Assembly: GCA_020444325.1 (NCBI GenBank)
Contig: JAHLLD010000003.1
Location: 209,572-273,571, forward strand
Length of the DNA: 64,000 bases
Direction: 5' to 3'
DNA from: a bacterium
GTDB lineage: Bacteria; Bacteroidota; Ignavibacteria; SZUA-365
Shown here: positions 13,164 to 21,653 of the stretch, one piece after another
Position numbering within the stretch: position 1 is the stretch's first letter
How the letters are laid out: the number at the start of each line of letters is the position of its first letter
Program-made: the position numbers and the translations under genes
Notes under the pieces: generated by a model
What the model was told of the DNA's origin: nothing
What the model saw: the letters and a program-made list of their open reading frames with translations, nothing else
Database searches by the model: none

Positions 13164-15560
13164 GTGAGAGATTTGAGAATCAAATTGCATGTTCTTTATG
13201 CCATGGGAGTACTCATCATTCAGATGTGTGTTTTTTCCATGCAACCTGCTGTGTCGCAGGTCCCGTACCCGGTTGCTTCCAGGTGGACGTCGTTGGGACC
13301 GAACGGTGGGGACTGGGCTCTCCGCGTAGAGATTCCTACCTCATCATCTGCGCATATATATGCCTGCGGAATCAATGAAGTGTTTCGAAGCGACAACTTC
13401 GGCGCGCAATGGATCAATATCTCAAACAACATTGGTGGACCGGACTGCCTGAACGAGAATCCCAGACTCATTCTATCTGCCACTAATAACAGAGAACTGT
13501 TCATAATAAACTCGAGTGAGATAATCTACCACACGATGGATGCGGGTGAAACCTGGGAACGGATGTATTCGGACTCCGTCAATTTTCTGCTGCATGTTGA
13601 TCCCAGGAATCCCGACCTCATGATCGCGCGGAAGTATTTATCCACCCCATACCTCAACTCTTTTGTGGCGTCAACGGATGGGGGACAGACGTGGCAAGAC
13701 CGGTCCTCTGGAATCGACACCACCATGGGGCGGCTGCTTCTGAATCCAAATCCCTTCTTTCACGATCACTTGCTGGCTTTTCAACCAGCTGGTCATGGTT
13801 CGGATGTCATCAGTGGTCACCTGCTTTATGCCAGTTCCGATTTCGGTTTGCACTGGCGAAAAATCTCATCGTTGGACAGCACACAGACGGAAACCGTTGT
13901 CACCTTCGATTCACAGAATCCTTCAATCTTCTATGTCCGCAGTTTCGCTTCCGCCTCAGGTGTTCTTAAAACTACCGATGCCGGCACCACGTGGGAGGCG
14001 GTTGGAAATGGACTGCCAGCACCTCCGTCGTTTGGCTACAGACTGACCGTCGATCCATCGCGTTCGAATGTCGTGTATGCACACGATGGAACAGATATCT
14101 ATCGCAGCACTAATGGTGGTAACGACTTCAGTGTTCTTTCGGCAGCACCGTCCCTCGGACGCATCAATACGATTACTATCGATCCCATTGATTCCATGCG
14201 ACTGTATGTGGGAGCTGTCCCAACGGGCGTCTGGTTCAGTAATGATGGAGGTATTTCATGGGAGGCGCAATCGAACGGACTGACCATCAGCGATGTTGCA
14301 GCCTTCTCATGCCTTTCGAAGGATTCGATTTTCGCACTTGTTCACGGCAAGGGTCTGCTCCGCACAACCAATGGCGGCGGTGATTGGGAGACTCTGTTAC
14401 CCGATCCTTCGAGTTCTGAGGCTTCGATGATTCTCGTTCAATCGGACGGTGAGCATGCGATCTATTCCACGCGTGTTCCGTCATCCTGGTATGGGAGCAC
14501 CACCGCATTTGACACGACAATCATAGCTAGGAGCACTGACGCAGGAACCATATGGGAGCAACTTCATATTCCGCACAGGTCGGTCTCGCATGTTGGCGTC
14601 TCCTCTGATCGGCAGGTGATGTATGCAGATTTCTCTGCTGGTGTTGATTCAACTGGATCATTATTGGATGGGCTGATTAGAAGCTCGGACGCCGGAAACA
14701 CATGGGAAATTCTTCAGCTTCCGGGATACCGGATCAATTCCGTGCGAAACATCATTGTTGATCCAGTGAATAGTGACCGGGTGTACGCAACAGTAATTGC
14801 GCTGCCTTCGGCCTCGCTTCCCAACCGTGGCAGCCTCGTGATCCGGAGCGATGATGGAGGAAAATCGTGGACTACCATTGCAGATACCATATACGGCTTT
14901 GTAGTGCGTCCCAGGCAGCCTCACATACTGTTTCATCTATCCAGCGATGAACATCACCGCAGGATCCTGAACAGGAGCAGCGATTATGGGGCAACCTGGG
15001 AGCGGATAGCTGTCGGCTACAAAGTCCGGGATATAGTCCCGCATCCATTGCATGTGGATATGCTTTATGGTGTAACAGATCCGGGACGCATCACCTACAG
15101 TACGGATGGAGGTGCGAGCTGGAGGGAAGTTGAGTCCAGTGGTTCCTGCAAAGGGCTCCTACAGGTCGCGCCAGTACAGGTTGATTCTTCCAGTTTTGTT
15201 CTTTTTGGTTCTACTTCGTATGGGGGACTCAAGGTCTATCAAGGCGATGTCGTTTCTTCGATCACTGTGGAAAATCAGCCGTTGGATATTCATCTTGGTC
15301 AGTCGTACCCGAATCCAACGCACTCCGGTAGTACCGGGATGAAAACGACAATCCCATTCTCCCTTGATCAGGATGGGTATGTCCGTCTTGTCATTCATGA
15401 CATCATGGGCCGCCGTGTTCGCACGATTGTGAACCATACGTTGTCCGCCGGGGTTCACCACGCTGAAATCGATATCAAGGGACTGCGTCCAGGAATTTAT
15501 TATTACACGCTGACAGCCAATTCGCAGACTGCTACAAAAACACTCGTTGTGGTTCGCTGA
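13164..15560 (+). CDS. T9SS-exported beta-propeller protein with Asp-box (BNR/VPS10-like) repeats
   Basis: About 798 residues. The signal peptide is hydrophobic (VLYAMGVLIIQMCVFSM) and cleavage after AVSQ is plausible. At least ten Asp-box motifs of the form S/T-x-D-x-G-x-T-W are seen, such as STDGGQTW, TTDAGTTW, SNDGGISW, SSDAGNTW, SDDGGKSW and STDGGASW. These mark beta-propeller blades as in sialidase-like, sortilin-like and photosystem-assembly-like proteins. The C-terminus is a clear T9SS type A sorting domain: LGQSYPNPTHSG, YDIMGRRVR-like IHDIMGRRVR, and PGIYYYTL. The listed start is a GTG; TTG at 13173 behind AAGGTGAG or an ATG 13 codons on are alternatives. The role is probably extracellular binding or adhesion; catalytic residues were not identified. 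Confidence 0.88.
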   Translation: MRDLRIKLHVLYAMGVLIIQMCVFSMQPAVSQVPYPVASRWTSLGPNGGDWALRVEIPTSSSAHIYACGINEVFRSDNFGAQWINISNNIGGPDCLNENPRLILSATNNRELFIINSSEIIYHTMDAGETWERMYSDSVNFLLHVDPRNPDLMIARKYLSTPYLNSFVASTDGGQTWQDRSSGIDTTMGRLLLNPNPFFHDHLLAFQPAGHGSDVISGHLLYASSDFGLHWRKISSLDSTQTETVVTFDSQNPSIFYVRSFASASGVLKTTDAGTTWEAVGNGLPAPPSFGYRLTVDPSRSNVVYAHDGTDIYRSTNGGNDFSVLSAAPSLGRINTITIDPIDSMRLYVGAVPTGVWFSNDGGISWEAQSNGLTISDVAAFSCLSKDSIFALVHGKGLLRTTNGGGDWETLLPDPSSSEASMILVQSDGEHAIYSTRVPSSWYGSTTAFDTTIIARSTDAGTIWEQLHIPHRSVSHVGVSSDRQVMYADFSAGVDSTGSLLDGLIRSSDAGNTWEILQLPGYRINSVRNIIVDPVNSDRVYATVIALPSASLPNRGSLVIRSDDGGKSWTTIADTIYGFVVRPRQPHILFHLSSDEHHRRILNRSSDYGATWERIAVGYKVRDIVPHPLHVDMLYGVTDPGRITYSTDGGASWREVESSGSCKGLLQVAPVQVDSSSFVLFGSTSYGGLKVYQGDVVSSITVENQPLDIHLGQSYPNPTHSGSTGMKTTIPFSLDQDGYVRLVIHDIMGRRVRTIVNHTLSAGVHHAEIDIKGLRPGIYYYTLTANSQTATKTLVVVR

Positions 15561-16758: not shown

Positions 16759-19692
16759 GTGGGAGAGGCAGAGGGAGGGGGAATCCGGTTTGTGATACAG
16801 CGATGTGAAATGCACTTTATGCGCATGAGCGAAGACCATCTGCACAACATGCTCGACGAGCGCGCGCTCTCGATGAACCTTCGGCCGTACCAGGCTGAAG
16901 CGCTGGATGTGTTGACGCGAAAGCACGCAGAAGGCAAGCGTCGTTTCCACATCGTCGCACCGCCGGGATCGGGAAAGACCATTATCGGCATCGCATTTCT
17001 GCAGCGCCTGGGTGTGAATTCCGTGATTCTCTCGCCCAACGCGGCCATTCAGGCACAGTGGATCGACAAGTACGGTCGCGCCACCGCCGATCTGGTGGAT
17101 ACGCTGGGTGAGGTCTGGGGAGATGATGTGCGGCATCTCATCGGACACGATCCCGCGCAGCAGACACCGATCCTGTCGCTGACCTACCAGAGAATTGCCG
17201 TACGCAATGCCGTGGACGGCAGCATGCATGAAAACGTCGAACACCTGGTGGAGATTCTGCGCAGACAGGATTACCAGCTCCTCATCCTGGACGAGTGCCA
17301 CCACCTGCTCGCGTTCTGGGCGGATGTATTGAAGGAAGTGCTCGCCCTGCATCCGATGATGGTGCTGGGACTCACGGCCACACCGCCGGTTGACCGTGCC
17401 GCGCACGAACAGTCAATGTATCTCGACCTTGTGGGACCCGTGGATTACCAGATCCCGCTCCCCGCCGTCGTCAAGGACGGCAACCTGGCGCCGTTCCAGG
17501 ACCTCGTCTGCCTGGTCCACCCCGATCCGCAGGAACTCGCCTTCATCCGTGCGCGGCACCAGGAATTTCACGCGCTGTTCGAAGACCTGAACAGCGCGCA
17601 GGCAGATGTCACACCCCTGCATCTGTACGTGCAGGACGTCATGGACCATTGCGCATTTCGAGGCAGGAAATACGATGCATGGAACTCCTTTCTGAAAAAC
17701 AATACTTCCGCCGCCATCGCCCTCGGACGCTATGCCCATCGATACGGCATTCCTCTACCCGCGCATGTGCCGATGCTCGATGAAATGGAAGAAGCGCTCA
17801 CGCTCGATGATGTCTCCGGTATCCTGCAAGGCTATCTCGACGATGTCTGCAGCGGCGAGCACGCTCCGGAAATCGCGTCGCGTATCGGCAGGGTGACGCG
17901 TGCCCTAAGGCAGCTCGGGTATGAACAGCGCGGAGGGGGGTTCGTACGGCGGCGGAGCGTCATCGACCGCGTACTCGCGCTGTCGCATGCCAAACACGGG
18001 ATGCTTCGTCGTATCCTCGCGCAGGAAATCCGGAATCTCGGTGATCACGTGCGTGCGCTGGTGCTGACAGATTTCGAAACAGCACAGGCGGGCGGAATGA
18101 AAGCGCTCGAAGGCATTCTCGATCCGGAGGCCGGGGGCGCGGTGGCCGTCATGCGTACCATCACTTCCGATCCGGAGACCGACGTTCTCGATCCCGTCAT
18201 GCTCACGGGTTCTTCAGTGCTGTGCGACGACGACCTCGCGCAGCGTTTCTGCGCGGACATGCGCGCAATCGCGGCGGCGCGGCAGTGGGAGATACAGCTC
18301 GAAGCTGTCTTCATTGGTGAGGGCGAATACACGCCGGGGGATATGGCCGGCGAATCCGACGCTACACGAGGGATGTTTGAAATTCGTGGTTCAGGAAGCG
18401 ACTGGAACACGCGCACCTACGTGCTGATGATCACCGAACTGTTTGACCGGGGCGTCACCCGCTGTCTGATCGGCACGCGCGGACTCCTGGGCGAAGGTTG
18501 GGACAGCGCGGCAGTAAATGTGCTGATCGACATGACCGCGGTGGCGAGTTACGTGAGCGTCAATCAGATGCACGGTCGCAGCCTGCGTCTCGATCCGTCA
18601 CGGCCCGAGAAAGTGTCCAACAACTGGGATATCGTCGCCGTCCTGCCCGAGTTCGAGCGCGGCTTCGCCGACTGGGATCGCTTCCTGCGAAAACACCAGC
18701 ATTTCTACGGGCTGAGCGATGATGGCGAACTCGAACGCGGTATCGGCCACGTACACCCGCTGCTGACGCATCTGCGTCCCGATGAGCTGACCGGGGCCAT
18801 CGATCACATCAACGAAGACATGCTGGCACGATCAGCCCGTCGCGATGAGGTCCTCCGTGCATGGCGCATCGGACTCGAGTATCGCGGCGTTGAACTTCCC
18901 TGCCTCGAATACCTTCCCGACGCCGATGCCCCCACGCGTCTCCCGGCCACAGCGCGAAGCACGGCGAAGCTCGAGAAGGTGATCGAGGAATTCCGCTTGC
19001 AATCGCGCCGCCTGGGTGGTATCGCCGCTGTCGTTCCTGCTCTCACTGCCGCCGCGGTGAGCGTCGCAGTGAACACCTTCGCCCCGGCACTCACGGCCGG
19101 TGCGGGCTTGTCGACATTTGGCCTGCTGACCGTCGGTCTTCTTTGGTATCGCTCTCGGCGTCTGAATCGCGTTGTCACCGAGGAGCAGCACGTATCGAGC
19201 ACCGAGCATGTCATGTCACTGGCGAACGTCGTACGCGACAGCATCGTCGCCCTGCGGGAGGAAACGTGTGACGCCGTTCCGCCCATTCGGAGCAGTCACC
19301 GTGACGACGGCGGGTTGCGCATATGGATTGAGTCCGAACTGGAAGAGGAGAACACATGCTTCACATCCTCGATGAACGAACTGTTTCGCCCGGTGCAGGA
19401 CCAGCGCTACATTCTCCAGACCTACAGACTGATCAATGGACGGCGGGTCGGTGAACTCCTCCGAAAGCGCGATCCAGCCGATGCCTACGTCAAGGTGGGG
19501 GTTGTCCCCGTACCCTCGGACTTCGCCCGCAAACGCGAACGCGCCGATGTCTTTCACCGCTTCTGGGAAGAGCACCTGGGCAAAGCTGACCTGCTCTACA
19601 CGCGGAAGGGTGAGGGCGCGAACCTGCTGAAGACGCAGCTGCGCACACGCTTCATGCAGGGTCGCCGCTTCGTGAAGGTCCTGTGGAAATAG
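16759..19692 (+). CDS. Large SF2 (DEAD/DEAH-like) helicase with C-terminal membrane hairpin
   Basis: 977 residues if started at GTG 16759. GTG 16792 (behind AGGGAGGGGGA) or ATG 16810/16825 are also possible. Helicase motifs are complete: LRPYQAEAL (Q-like), Walker A APPGSGKT (67-74), DECH (178-181), GLTATPP (motif III), GTRGLLGEGWDS (motif V) and QMHGRSLR (motif VI). A ~250-residue insert without recognised motifs separates the two RecA-like lobes. Residues ~752-797 form two hydrophobic stretches (AAVVPALTAAAVSVAV and LSTFGLLTVGLLW), unusual for a helicase. The last ~170 residues are soluble and contain no motif I know. It stands alone between surface-protein genes. It could be a defence or DNA-processing enzyme; the substrate is unknown. 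Confidence 0.85.
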   Translation: MGEAEGGGIRFVIQRCEMHFMRMSEDHLHNMLDERALSMNLRPYQAEALDVLTRKHAEGKRRFHIVAPPGSGKTIIGIAFLQRLGVNSVILSPNAAIQAQWIDKYGRATADLVDTLGEVWGDDVRHLIGHDPAQQTPILSLTYQRIAVRNAVDGSMHENVEHLVEILRRQDYQLLILDECHHLLAFWADVLKEVLALHPMMVLGLTATPPVDRAAHEQSMYLDLVGPVDYQIPLPAVVKDGNLAPFQDLVCLVHPDPQELAFIRARHQEFHALFEDLNSAQADVTPLHLYVQDVMDHCAFRGRKYDAWNSFLKNNTSAAIALGRYAHRYGIPLPAHVPMLDEMEEALTLDDVSGILQGYLDDVCSGEHAPEIASRIGRVTRALRQLGYEQRGGGFVRRRSVIDRVLALSHAKHGMLRRILAQEIRNLGDHVRALVLTDFETAQAGGMKALEGILDPEAGGAVAVMRTITSDPETDVLDPVMLTGSSVLCDDDLAQRFCADMRAIAAARQWEIQLEAVFIGEGEYTPGDMAGESDATRGMFEIRGSGSDWNTRTYVLMITELFDRGVTRCLIGTRGLLGEGWDSAAVNVLIDMTAVASYVSVNQMHGRSLRLDPSRPEKVSNNWDIVAVLPEFERGFADWDRFLRKHQHFYGLSDDGELERGIGHVHPLLTHLRPDELTGAIDHINEDMLARSARRDEVLRAWRIGLEYRGVELPCLEYLPDADAPTRLPATARSTAKLEKVIEEFRLQSRRLGGIAAVVPALTAAAVSVAVNTFAPALTAGAGLSTFGLLTVGLLWYRSRRLNRVVTEEQHVSSTEHVMSLANVVRDSIVALREETCDAVPPIRSSHRDDGGLRIWIESELEEENTCFTSSMNELFRPVQDQRYILQTYRLINGRRVGELLRKRDPADAYVKVGVVPVPSDFARKRERADVFHRFWEEHLGKADLLYTRKGEGANLLKTQLRTRFMQGRRFVKVLWK

Positions 19693-19709: not shown

Positions 19710-21344
19710 TCAGCGCACCAACAGCTTGCTATGCAGCACTGTCGTGTTCTGAGTTACTGTCACAAAGTAAAGTCCCGGGGTGAGCTGGGGAATGTTCATC
19801 GAGTGGTGAAGTCTGGAGCCGGGTGAGTCGAGGCGCTTCATGATTACAGCACGACCAAGCATGTCAGACACGAGAATCCGGGCTGTGCCCGGACGCAGAC
19901 CTGTCGCATGGATGGTGAGATATTGGTCTGATTGAGAAATTGGATTGGGTGAGAGGTGAATGGAAGGGGATTCCGGATGGGGGGACTGCCCAACGGATGT
20001 TGCCAATTGCTTCGCACCGACCCAGATCTGAAAGCGACAACTTAGTCCATGCTTGGATCCCGAGCCGAGAGTTATCACATCGTCATATCCATCACCATTT
20101 ACGTCTCCGGCTGGATACACTCCTGGATCCACATAATCGACATTCGGAGAGGTTCCGAAAAACCCCAATGGAGTGCGGAACTCTGCACCACCAGGATAGA
20201 AATAATATCTGGTTGCCTGCCAGAAAATACCGTTCGACCAGCCCATTATCAGGTCTGGTTTGCCATCACCATTCATATCACCCACTGGAGCAATTACGGT
20301 CGGGCTAATATCAGCGTATGGTCCAGGTGTTGCATTCGGTATCGAGTCGTTTGGTAGAATCGTCAATGGCAGCTCTGCCTTACCACGAAACATCAGTGCG
20401 TCACCGAATTCCCTATGAATTGCGATATCGAGTATGTCCTGGTAGCCGTCGTTGTCGATATCCATCATTCTTGCCCGACCGTATTTTGGTGCCCATCCGT
20501 CTTTTTGCCGGATCACCCTGGTGGGTATTCCTGCTGCAGCTTGACTATTCCCCAGATAGAGATTCCAGTACACATTACCTGTGGTGTCAGCGCCGGCAAT
20601 CAGGATTTCGTCGTAGCCGTCTCCATTGATGTCCCCTGTCAGAATATCGAGTGCAAATGTCAGAGTGGCCGCTAAGGGTGGCGTGACCAGGAACTCGACA
20701 TCATATTCCGCATCCATCTCCGGACCGCCGAGATACAGAACCGCCTTGTATCTAACGGACTCCCGGAGGTCATTCGCCATCACGAGAAGATCCGGCCAGC
20801 CGTCACCATTGAAATCCGGGGCAAACACTGAGTTCCGGTAACCATACTCCAAGGTCTTACCGACACGTTCTTGCGGCTTTCCTTCGATCAGCAGGTCAGG
20901 CTCCCAGTCATACTTCACCGCGCCTTCTTTCTGGTAATAGACACGGACTTTACCCGTGAAATCCGGGGGATATTCTCCAGGGGGCCAATTATGGATAGCG
21001 GTGACAATATCCATGCGTCCATCACGATTGAAGTCCGCTGCACACACACCCGAACTGCCCCCCTGAAGTCGATAAGCCGGTACATGGCTGAGCGTATCAC
21101 CACCGAAAAAGATATATGTGGTGTCGGATTTCGATGTGACGGCAAAGTCGTCGTATCCGTCTCCGTTGATATCCCCGAGTGGAGCCGAGTACCGGGCGAA
21201 ATACGTCAAATCCGGCCGGTACACCTCCGCCCATTTCTTGATATGCCAATCCGGCAGCTCGGTCGTCTTCGGCACCTGCGCGTGCAGCAGTCCAGGAAAG
21301 CCGATGAGAATGAAGCACAAGATCGAAAAAAGAATACGCCGCAT
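19710..21344 (-). CDS. T9SS-exported FG-GAP/VCBS-repeat protein
   Basis: 544 residues from the ATG at 21344, where MRRILFSILCFILIGF begins a signal peptide cleaved near LLHAQ. At least seven calcium-binding-type repeats are visible: DINGDGYDDF, DFNRDGRMDI, DFNGDGWPDL, DINGDGYDEI, DIDNDGYQDI, DMNGDGKPDL and DVNGDGYDDV. They form an integrin-alpha-like beta-propeller. The C-terminus (IHLSPNPIS, VSDMLGRAV, PGLYFVTV) is a T9SS type A sorting domain. Predicted to be a surface or secreted Ca-binding adhesion or scaffold protein; no catalytic domain is seen. It converges with the helicase gene, with only 17 bases between the stops. Confidence 0.9.
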   Translation of the reverse strand: MRRILFSILCFILIGFPGLLHAQVPKTTELPDWHIKKWAEVYRPDLTYFARYSAPLGDINGDGYDDFAVTSKSDTTYIFFGGDTLSHVPAYRLQGGSSGVCAADFNRDGRMDIVTAIHNWPPGEYPPDFTGKVRVYYQKEGAVKYDWEPDLLIEGKPQERVGKTLEYGYRNSVFAPDFNGDGWPDLLVMANDLRESVRYKAVLYLGGPEMDAEYDVEFLVTPPLAATLTFALDILTGDINGDGYDEILIAGADTTGNVYWNLYLGNSQAAAGIPTRVIRQKDGWAPKYGRARMMDIDNDGYQDILDIAIHREFGDALMFRGKAELPLTILPNDSIPNATPGPYADISPTVIAPVGDMNGDGKPDLIMGWSNGIFWQATRYYFYPGGAEFRTPLGFFGTSPNVDYVDPGVYPAGDVNGDGYDDVITLGSGSKHGLSCRFQIWVGAKQLATSVGQSPHPESPSIHLSPNPISQSDQYLTIHATGLRPGTARILVSDMLGRAVIMKRLDSPGSRLHHSMNIPQLTPGLYFVTVTQNTTVLHSKLLVR

Positions 21345-21441
21345 ACAGCAAACCCCCAGTGGAATAAACGACGATCTATGGTACGGAAATACGAGGAGGG
21401 AATAAAGAGAGGAGATCACCCTCCATGATCACCTGGAAAAT

Positions 21442-21550
21442 CGATAGCGATAACGATTTCGATATCGTATACGATTTCGATTTCGAATTCGATTTCGTGT
21501 GCGATATCGATTTCGATTTCGGTTTCGACTGCGATTTCGATTTCGATTTT
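21442..21550. repeat. Imperfect GATTTC hexanucleotide array
   Basis: About 109 bases made almost entirely of GATTTC, GATATC, GATAAC, GAATTC and similar variants in a period of six. It ends directly at the 42-bp dispersed repeat copy C. The degenerate period suggests an old simple-sequence expansion. Confidence 0.85.
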
Positions 21551-21590
21551 CCGGCTTCGTTTCGCTTCACTCAACTACGCCGCGACAGGC
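21549..21590 (-). repeat. Dispersed 42-bp repeat, copy C
   Basis: On the minus strand it reads GCCTGTCGCGGCGTAG at the start and AACGAAGCCGGAA at the end, matching copy A at 7295-7336 at all but about five positions. It abuts the GATTTC array. Confidence 0.8.
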
Positions 21591-21653
21591 GAAGTCAGTG
21601 GTACTTGGTTGATGTTGGGAAATCAGAGGGTGCGTGCCGACAACGCCGAACCG

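Follow-up and report, generated by a model that had tools for sequence, protein, structure and literature searches.

The gene and its surroundings

The window, by which we mean the whole 64,000-nucleotide stretch of DNA that was analysed, carries on its forward strand a helicase gene that is read as one open frame (16759-19692, 977 codons from a GTG). The true start is probably the ATG at 16825, which would give a protein of 955 aa, and not the GTG at 16759, which adds 22 residues, because DNA homology with the copy in a congeneric genome (G354) begins at 16823 (it covers 16823-19690 only) and the start codons align, the relative opening ATGGGCGAACATCATCTG opposite ATGAGCGAAGACCATCTG in the window. 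Motif residues are numbered below in the 977-aa frame from the GTG. The features discussed in this report are the following, all on the + strand.

16825..19692, +: helicase gene, most likely extent, 955 aa (G354 DNA homology, aligned starts)
16957..16980, +: motif I / Walker A, APPGSGKT, residues 67-74 (sequence; at least 90% conserved in the family)
17290..17304, +: motif II, DECHH, residues 178-182 (sequence; family alignment)
17374..17388, +: motif III, TATPP, residues 206-210 (sequence; family alignment)
17446..17958, +: family-specific inter-lobe region, residues ~230-400, between the two RecA-like lobes (conserved within the family)
18472..18504, +: motif V region, GTRGLLGEGWD, residues 572-582 (nearly invariant)
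18562..18588, +: motif VI, NQMHGRSLR, residues 602-610, with the arginine finger (nearly invariant)
19015..19071, +: hydrophobic segment 1, residues 753-771 (Kyte-Doolittle 2.0; stronger in most relatives)
19087..19152, +: hydrophobic segment 2, residues 777-798, a predicted membrane segment (estimate of about -0.2 kcal/mol; helix in a low-confidence model)
19165..19689, +: conserved C-terminal domain, residues 803-977 (35-member alignment)

An earlier description of this DNA, made from its letters only (the sequence-only reading), had the gene standing alone, and so it does: by Pfam, its neighbours encode secreted BNR/FG-GAP proteins, a DUF2807 protein, an arginine decarboxylase and a TyrRS-like protein. 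No defence gene and no methylase or specificity partner was recognised by Pfam among the adjacent genes, and a classical defence island at this position was rejected on that ground. The G+C content of the helicase gene is 61%, against 50% upstream and 54% downstream. There is no attC-type site at its 3' end, where the stop codon and the convergent FG-GAP gene are only about 18 bp apart, and an empty-site comparison found no relative that keeps both flanks. The secreted-protein genes on either side (13164-15560 and 19710-21419), of BNR/sortilin and FG-GAP type, carry the Por secretion-system C-terminal sorting domain. Low-complexity CGATTTCGATTTCGATATCG-type repeats (21440-21592) lie in the interval that separates the FG-GAP gene from the arginine decarboxylase gene, and similar stretches occur on several contigs of the same genome.

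The helicase motor

The protein has motifs I, II, III, V and VI in order, as expected of the SF2 superfamily and as the sequence-only reading had noted, and their columns are at least 90% conserved across 35 relatives; motif II is DEAHH in most of these and DECHH in the window protein. Pfam recognises ResIII (7.5e-21) and DEAD (2e-10) domains, and no nuclease or toxin domain was recognised. The nearest curated family is XPB, but the score against NF045503 is 78 bits where full-model membership of the XPB/Rad25 repair helicases requires 610, and residues 34-249 alone are matched. XPB is also the nearest solved structure, with RadD matched more weakly. Compared with XPB/Rad25 (NF045503, TIGR00603; PDB 6p4f, 5tnu, 2fwr), the closest solved relatives by sequence, the window protein shares the RecA1 lobe and the motifs, whereas no counterpart was found for its inter-lobe region, membrane hairpin or C-terminal domain. 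The inter-lobe region (residues ~230-400) had no PDB match below E 0.5.

We infer that the substrate is DNA rather than RNA. SF2 motifs alone cannot tell RNA from DNA helicases, and one weak match to a Dicer-related helicase (9t99, 1.3e-5) would suit a membrane-located protein that unwinds or senses RNA; however, the closest solved relatives, XPB and RadD, are double-stranded DNA translocases, and we consider an RNA-directed role distinctly improbable.

A hydrophobic hairpin at a conserved position

Two hydrophobic stretches had been described at about residues 752-797, and they are found at 753-771 and 777-795, with a Kyte-Doolittle value of 1.62 for the latter. The prediction that they form a transmembrane hairpin fared unevenly in the window protein: on a biological-scale estimate, which is approximate, the second segment alone is supported (-0.23 for residues 773-798) and the first is not. 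The window stretch is rich in Ala, Gly and Val, marginal, and among the weakest in the family, while many relatives are clearly transmembrane-like, with maxima of 2.9 on the Kyte-Doolittle scale and insertion estimates near -3. A full-length AlphaFold model, with a mean pLDDT of 45 and five sequences aligned, was unusable.

The family as a whole is more informative about position. At the same aligned point, the junction of motor and C-terminal domain, a hydrophobic stretch is found in 32 of the 35 distinct members, in most cases as two segments with a short loop. By the biological-scale estimate, 29 of the 35 fall below 0 at this place, three are borderline and three have no segment, and no member has a segment below 0 elsewhere in the protein; the placement is therefore conserved beyond chance. 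Sequence conservation within the hairpin is low, and it is position and hydrophobicity that are kept across the family. In 20 control ORFs taken from weaker helicase hits, Kyte-Doolittle peaks ranged from 1.1 to 1.9 and none had two segments of at least 1.6, although some family members exceed 1.6 elsewhere too and this scale alone is insufficient. Predicted insertion and a conserved position in homologues, the two marks of an integral-membrane segment, are thus both found at the level of prediction, and we infer that the hairpin inserts into the membrane. The mean number of Lys and Arg residues is 3.3 in the 15 residues before the hairpin, 1.3 in its loop and 3.7 in the 15 residues after it, a distribution that suggests that both ends are cytoplasmic.

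In two archaeal-type proteins (L002, L003) and the Tritonibacter protein (L045) the hairpin is replaced by a short linker. Because these three members do without it, the hairpin is best described as an optional, putative membrane-anchor module, and the buried soluble hairpin that the sequence-only reading had held up against itself becomes unlikely. Whichever function holds, the stretch could still be a buried helical pair in a soluble protein, as the Ala/Gly/Val-rich and marginal window copy might suggest, but the strength of the segments in relatives, the members with a linker instead and the basic flanks all count against this, and we regard it as rather improbable.

A private C-terminal domain

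The hairpin is followed by a soluble domain of about 165-170 aa, previously seen as some 170 residues with no recognised motif. Searches agree with that description: in none of the 35 members was there a Pfam match below 0.0037, and comparison with PDB sequences gave no match below 0.3. The domain is conserved nonetheless, with RY, VP, F, W, TR and G positions kept in the 35-member alignment, and its predicted layout is helix-strand-strand-helix, then mixed. A model of moderate quality (mean pLDDT 65, pTM 0.69), used as a query against PDB folds, returned no match with E below 0.03. Seven matches to the domain were found in 198 genomes, and all seven lie in this helicase. The domain is previously undescribed and, among the sequences searched, private to this helicase family.

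Distribution of the family

The family comprises proteins of about 880-990 aa, found at 35 distinct loci: in Bacteroidota broadly defined, in Paenibacillus and Tritonibacter, on gut contigs and in a marine archaeon; the archaeal relatives are Thalassarchaeaceae, and others lie on Paenibacillus and Rhodobacterales replicons. It is patchy and single-copy. A full-length member occurs in 10 of 296 genomes of the phylum, and a member in four of 294 genomes of the window's class, in two of the five searched in its genus, and in 20 of 149 genomes of a family (f29) that by gene content looks like Flavobacteriaceae, one of these being a broken fragment. This patchiness rules out a housekeeping helicase, and the homologues are accessory, not the uniformly housekeeping set that the sequence-only reading had named as counting against its proposal. 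On the Rhodovulum plasmid pRSMBA (L046), a relative without the hairpin is split into two frames annotated as separate proteins and is, to judge from this, a decaying copy.

Carriage by phages was considered and rejected. Scans of IMG/VR found no full relative, and two human-stool hits filed as phage are short, unverified contigs that are probably bacterial, one of them with ABC-transporter-like ORFs.

Transfer as a single gene and integron-type cassettes

One clade of a 34-row tree, the second, crosses families. The copies in the genomes G530, G565 and G013 share 73-90% DNA identity across the gene plus a few adjoining bases, and the homology between the window and its relative of the same genus likewise ends at the gene borders. 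Because homology stops there and the flanks are unrelated, the helicase is taken to move as one gene. Just upstream of the G565 copy (L099, upstream of 8457) are repeats of about 110 bp that recur in many copies in that genome and show no recognisable cassette ends.

Two relatives are integron-type cassettes. In G530, a Bacteroidota genome, the helicase is one of about 38 cassettes of the same orientation in a 79.5-kb array (L154-L157, contig 1, 2714000-2793500), in which one strand carries 64 of the 67 ORFs, with about 38 imperfect palindromes, also of one orientation, between them. The ends of the helicase cassette are complementary at 10 of 10 positions (GTTAGGCGTA/TACGCCTAAC). The ends of the G013 copy are also complementary at 10 of 10 positions, in a different sequence (GTTGGGCGTA/TACGCCCAAC): one end reads GTTGGGC against GTTAGGC in G530, and the partner end is altered to match, a change that we take as a strong sign of an integron-type cassette. 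Across the G530 array, 48% of cassettes have own ends that are complementary at 9-10 of 10 bases, compared with 4% when the ends are mismatched. A scan for agreement between the R boxes inside individual attC sites showed no excess, but it is the wrong test, as each site draws its two boxes from adjoining cassettes. The G530 and G013 relatives thus have the palindromic attC-type sites and complementary ends of integron cassettes, with a single orientation in the G530 array; the window copy, with no such site at its 3' end, does not.

A tyrosine recombinase at the end of the G530 array (L152:1156-2328, - strand) scores 197 bits on the integron-integrase model, for which the cut-off is 265, with model positions 179-238 unmatched. 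A canonical IntI, passing the cut-off, was found in G231 alone. The array may represent an integron type whose integrase is non-canonical. It also holds a second, different large helicase-like ORF (L155:6888-9779, - strand; 963 aa, MPTGSGKT), about 3.5 kb from the membrane-hairpin helicase.

The joining of a probable membrane anchor and an SF2 motor in one polypeptide would also fit a DNA-uptake or DNA-entry motor, working at the membrane as ComFA does and pulling incoming DNA into the cell. We consider this highly improbable: the ComFA family is absent among the NCBIfam matches, competence genes are absent among the annotated neighbours, some members lack the hairpin, and uptake genes are not usual cassette cargo.

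Defence genes beside the cassette copies

PADLOC recognised several defence genes in the G530 array, assigned to single ORFs by length and motifs: HerA (3e-245) and SIR2 (2e-128), PtuA (3e-122) and PtuB (2e-63) of Septu, SoFic (9e-50), and PDC-S59. The G013 helicase has a restriction-modification pair beside it, made up of a C5 cytosine methylase and an endonuclease of Eco47II type. Other loci gave few PADLOC hits among their neighbours. As to whether homologues lie among defence genes, the picture is mixed: the G530 and G013 copies do, and the window copy and the haem-locus copies described below do not. Similarly, the suggestion of a single-gene phage-defence enzyme gains indirect support from the defence genes beside two cassette copies, but the window gene has no defence neighbours and PADLOC has no model for its product, matching only the helicase lobe of other systems; known defence families were rejected on the latter ground. 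Cassettes carry many functions besides defence, so the association between cassette and defence genes is weak evidence.

The best PADLOC match of the window protein is to PbeA of PbeABCD, an HKD endonuclease fused to an SF2 helicase (PMC10853773). The match (1.9e-10) covers the helicase lobe only, beginning at model position 246-252 and leaving the N-terminal part of PbeA unmatched, whereas the window protein has no nuclease domain by Pfam and has a membrane hairpin and C-terminal domain; with unrelated genes adjacent, it does not belong to PbeABCD. With the helicase subunits of type I/III restriction systems (ResIII, EcoAI R) it shares the ResIII domain (7.5e-21), but it has neither a Pfam nuclease domain nor an adjacent methylase or specificity gene, and so falls outside these systems too. 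Finally, integrons are reported to store anti-phage systems (Darracq et al., doi 10.1126/science.ads0768, as cited in PMC13092281). As far as that citation describes them, the defence cassettes of chromosomal integrons resemble the G530 and G013 helicase cassettes with their self-complementary ends, and the G530 array likewise holds known defence genes; they differ in that the G530 recombinase is below the IntI cut-off and the window copy lies outside any cassette.

Long residence at a haem locus

A different history is seen in f29, where 16 of 22 copies adjoin hemF and 14 of those occupy the interval from hemF to hemB, on the other strand from these genes. In f29 genomes that lack the helicase, the hemF-hemB interval is mostly empty or holds other genes. 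All 16 haem-locus copies fall inside one 19-member clade of the 34-row tree and, because they form most of that clade, a mostly vertical and long residence is implied.

Such residence suits an accessory DNA-repair or recombination helicase, acting at membrane-proximal chromosome sites and useful in some lineages without being directed at phage, as does a core closest to the XPB and RadD repair helicases in a protein with no recognised nuclease or toxin domain. However, the gene is patchy even inside one genus (two of five), and is transferred singly and as a cassette beside defence genes, and its product scores 78 bits, far under the 610 that the curated XPB family requires. We give this reading a real but lesser chance, and it stays the main rival because of the haem-locus residence and because function is here read from sequence.

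Proposed function and its implications

The reading that we prefer, at a probability of roughly 45%, is that the gene encodes a single-gene accessory factor, a membrane-tethered, XPB-like SF2 DNA translocase directed against incoming phage or foreign DNA. It is the best supported because of the intact motor, the probable anchor, the private C-terminal domain, the single-gene mobility and the two defence neighbourhoods; a core nearest to the XPB/Rad25 double-stranded DNA helicases, the patchy presence and the offset G+C content of the gene point the same way. Against it stand the residence at the haem locus, the marginal hairpin of the window protein, the lack of a nuclease or toxin domain, and a window without a defence neighbour or cassette site. 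In the mechanism that we envisage, the two-segment hairpin would anchor the helicase on the inner side of the cytoplasmic membrane, with motor and C-terminal domain both in the cytoplasm; the motor would engage incoming DNA at the membrane or close to it, and the C-terminal domain might recognise the target or act as an effector. The defence role, the engagement at the point of entry and the role of the C-terminal domain are offered as hypotheses only. It is doubtful that the family amounts to a single-gene defence of a new type, a DNA translocase anchored in the membrane, with a new-fold C-terminal effector or sensor, that would intercept DNA at entry and spread as an integron-type cassette.

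Phrase searches of 5.4 million open-access papers, a set that takes in few subscription journals, found no description of a bacterial membrane-bound, transmembrane or membrane-anchored helicase family. If the anti-foreign-DNA reading is true, a membrane-anchored SF2 helicase would join the list of stand-alone factors acting against foreign DNA, and a new C-terminal domain would become available for characterization. Furthermore, the cassette context in one genome can hint at the function of an orphan gene that sits in unrelated surroundings, and the question of whether bacteria station DNA motors at the membrane against incoming genomes is directly testable with one gene.
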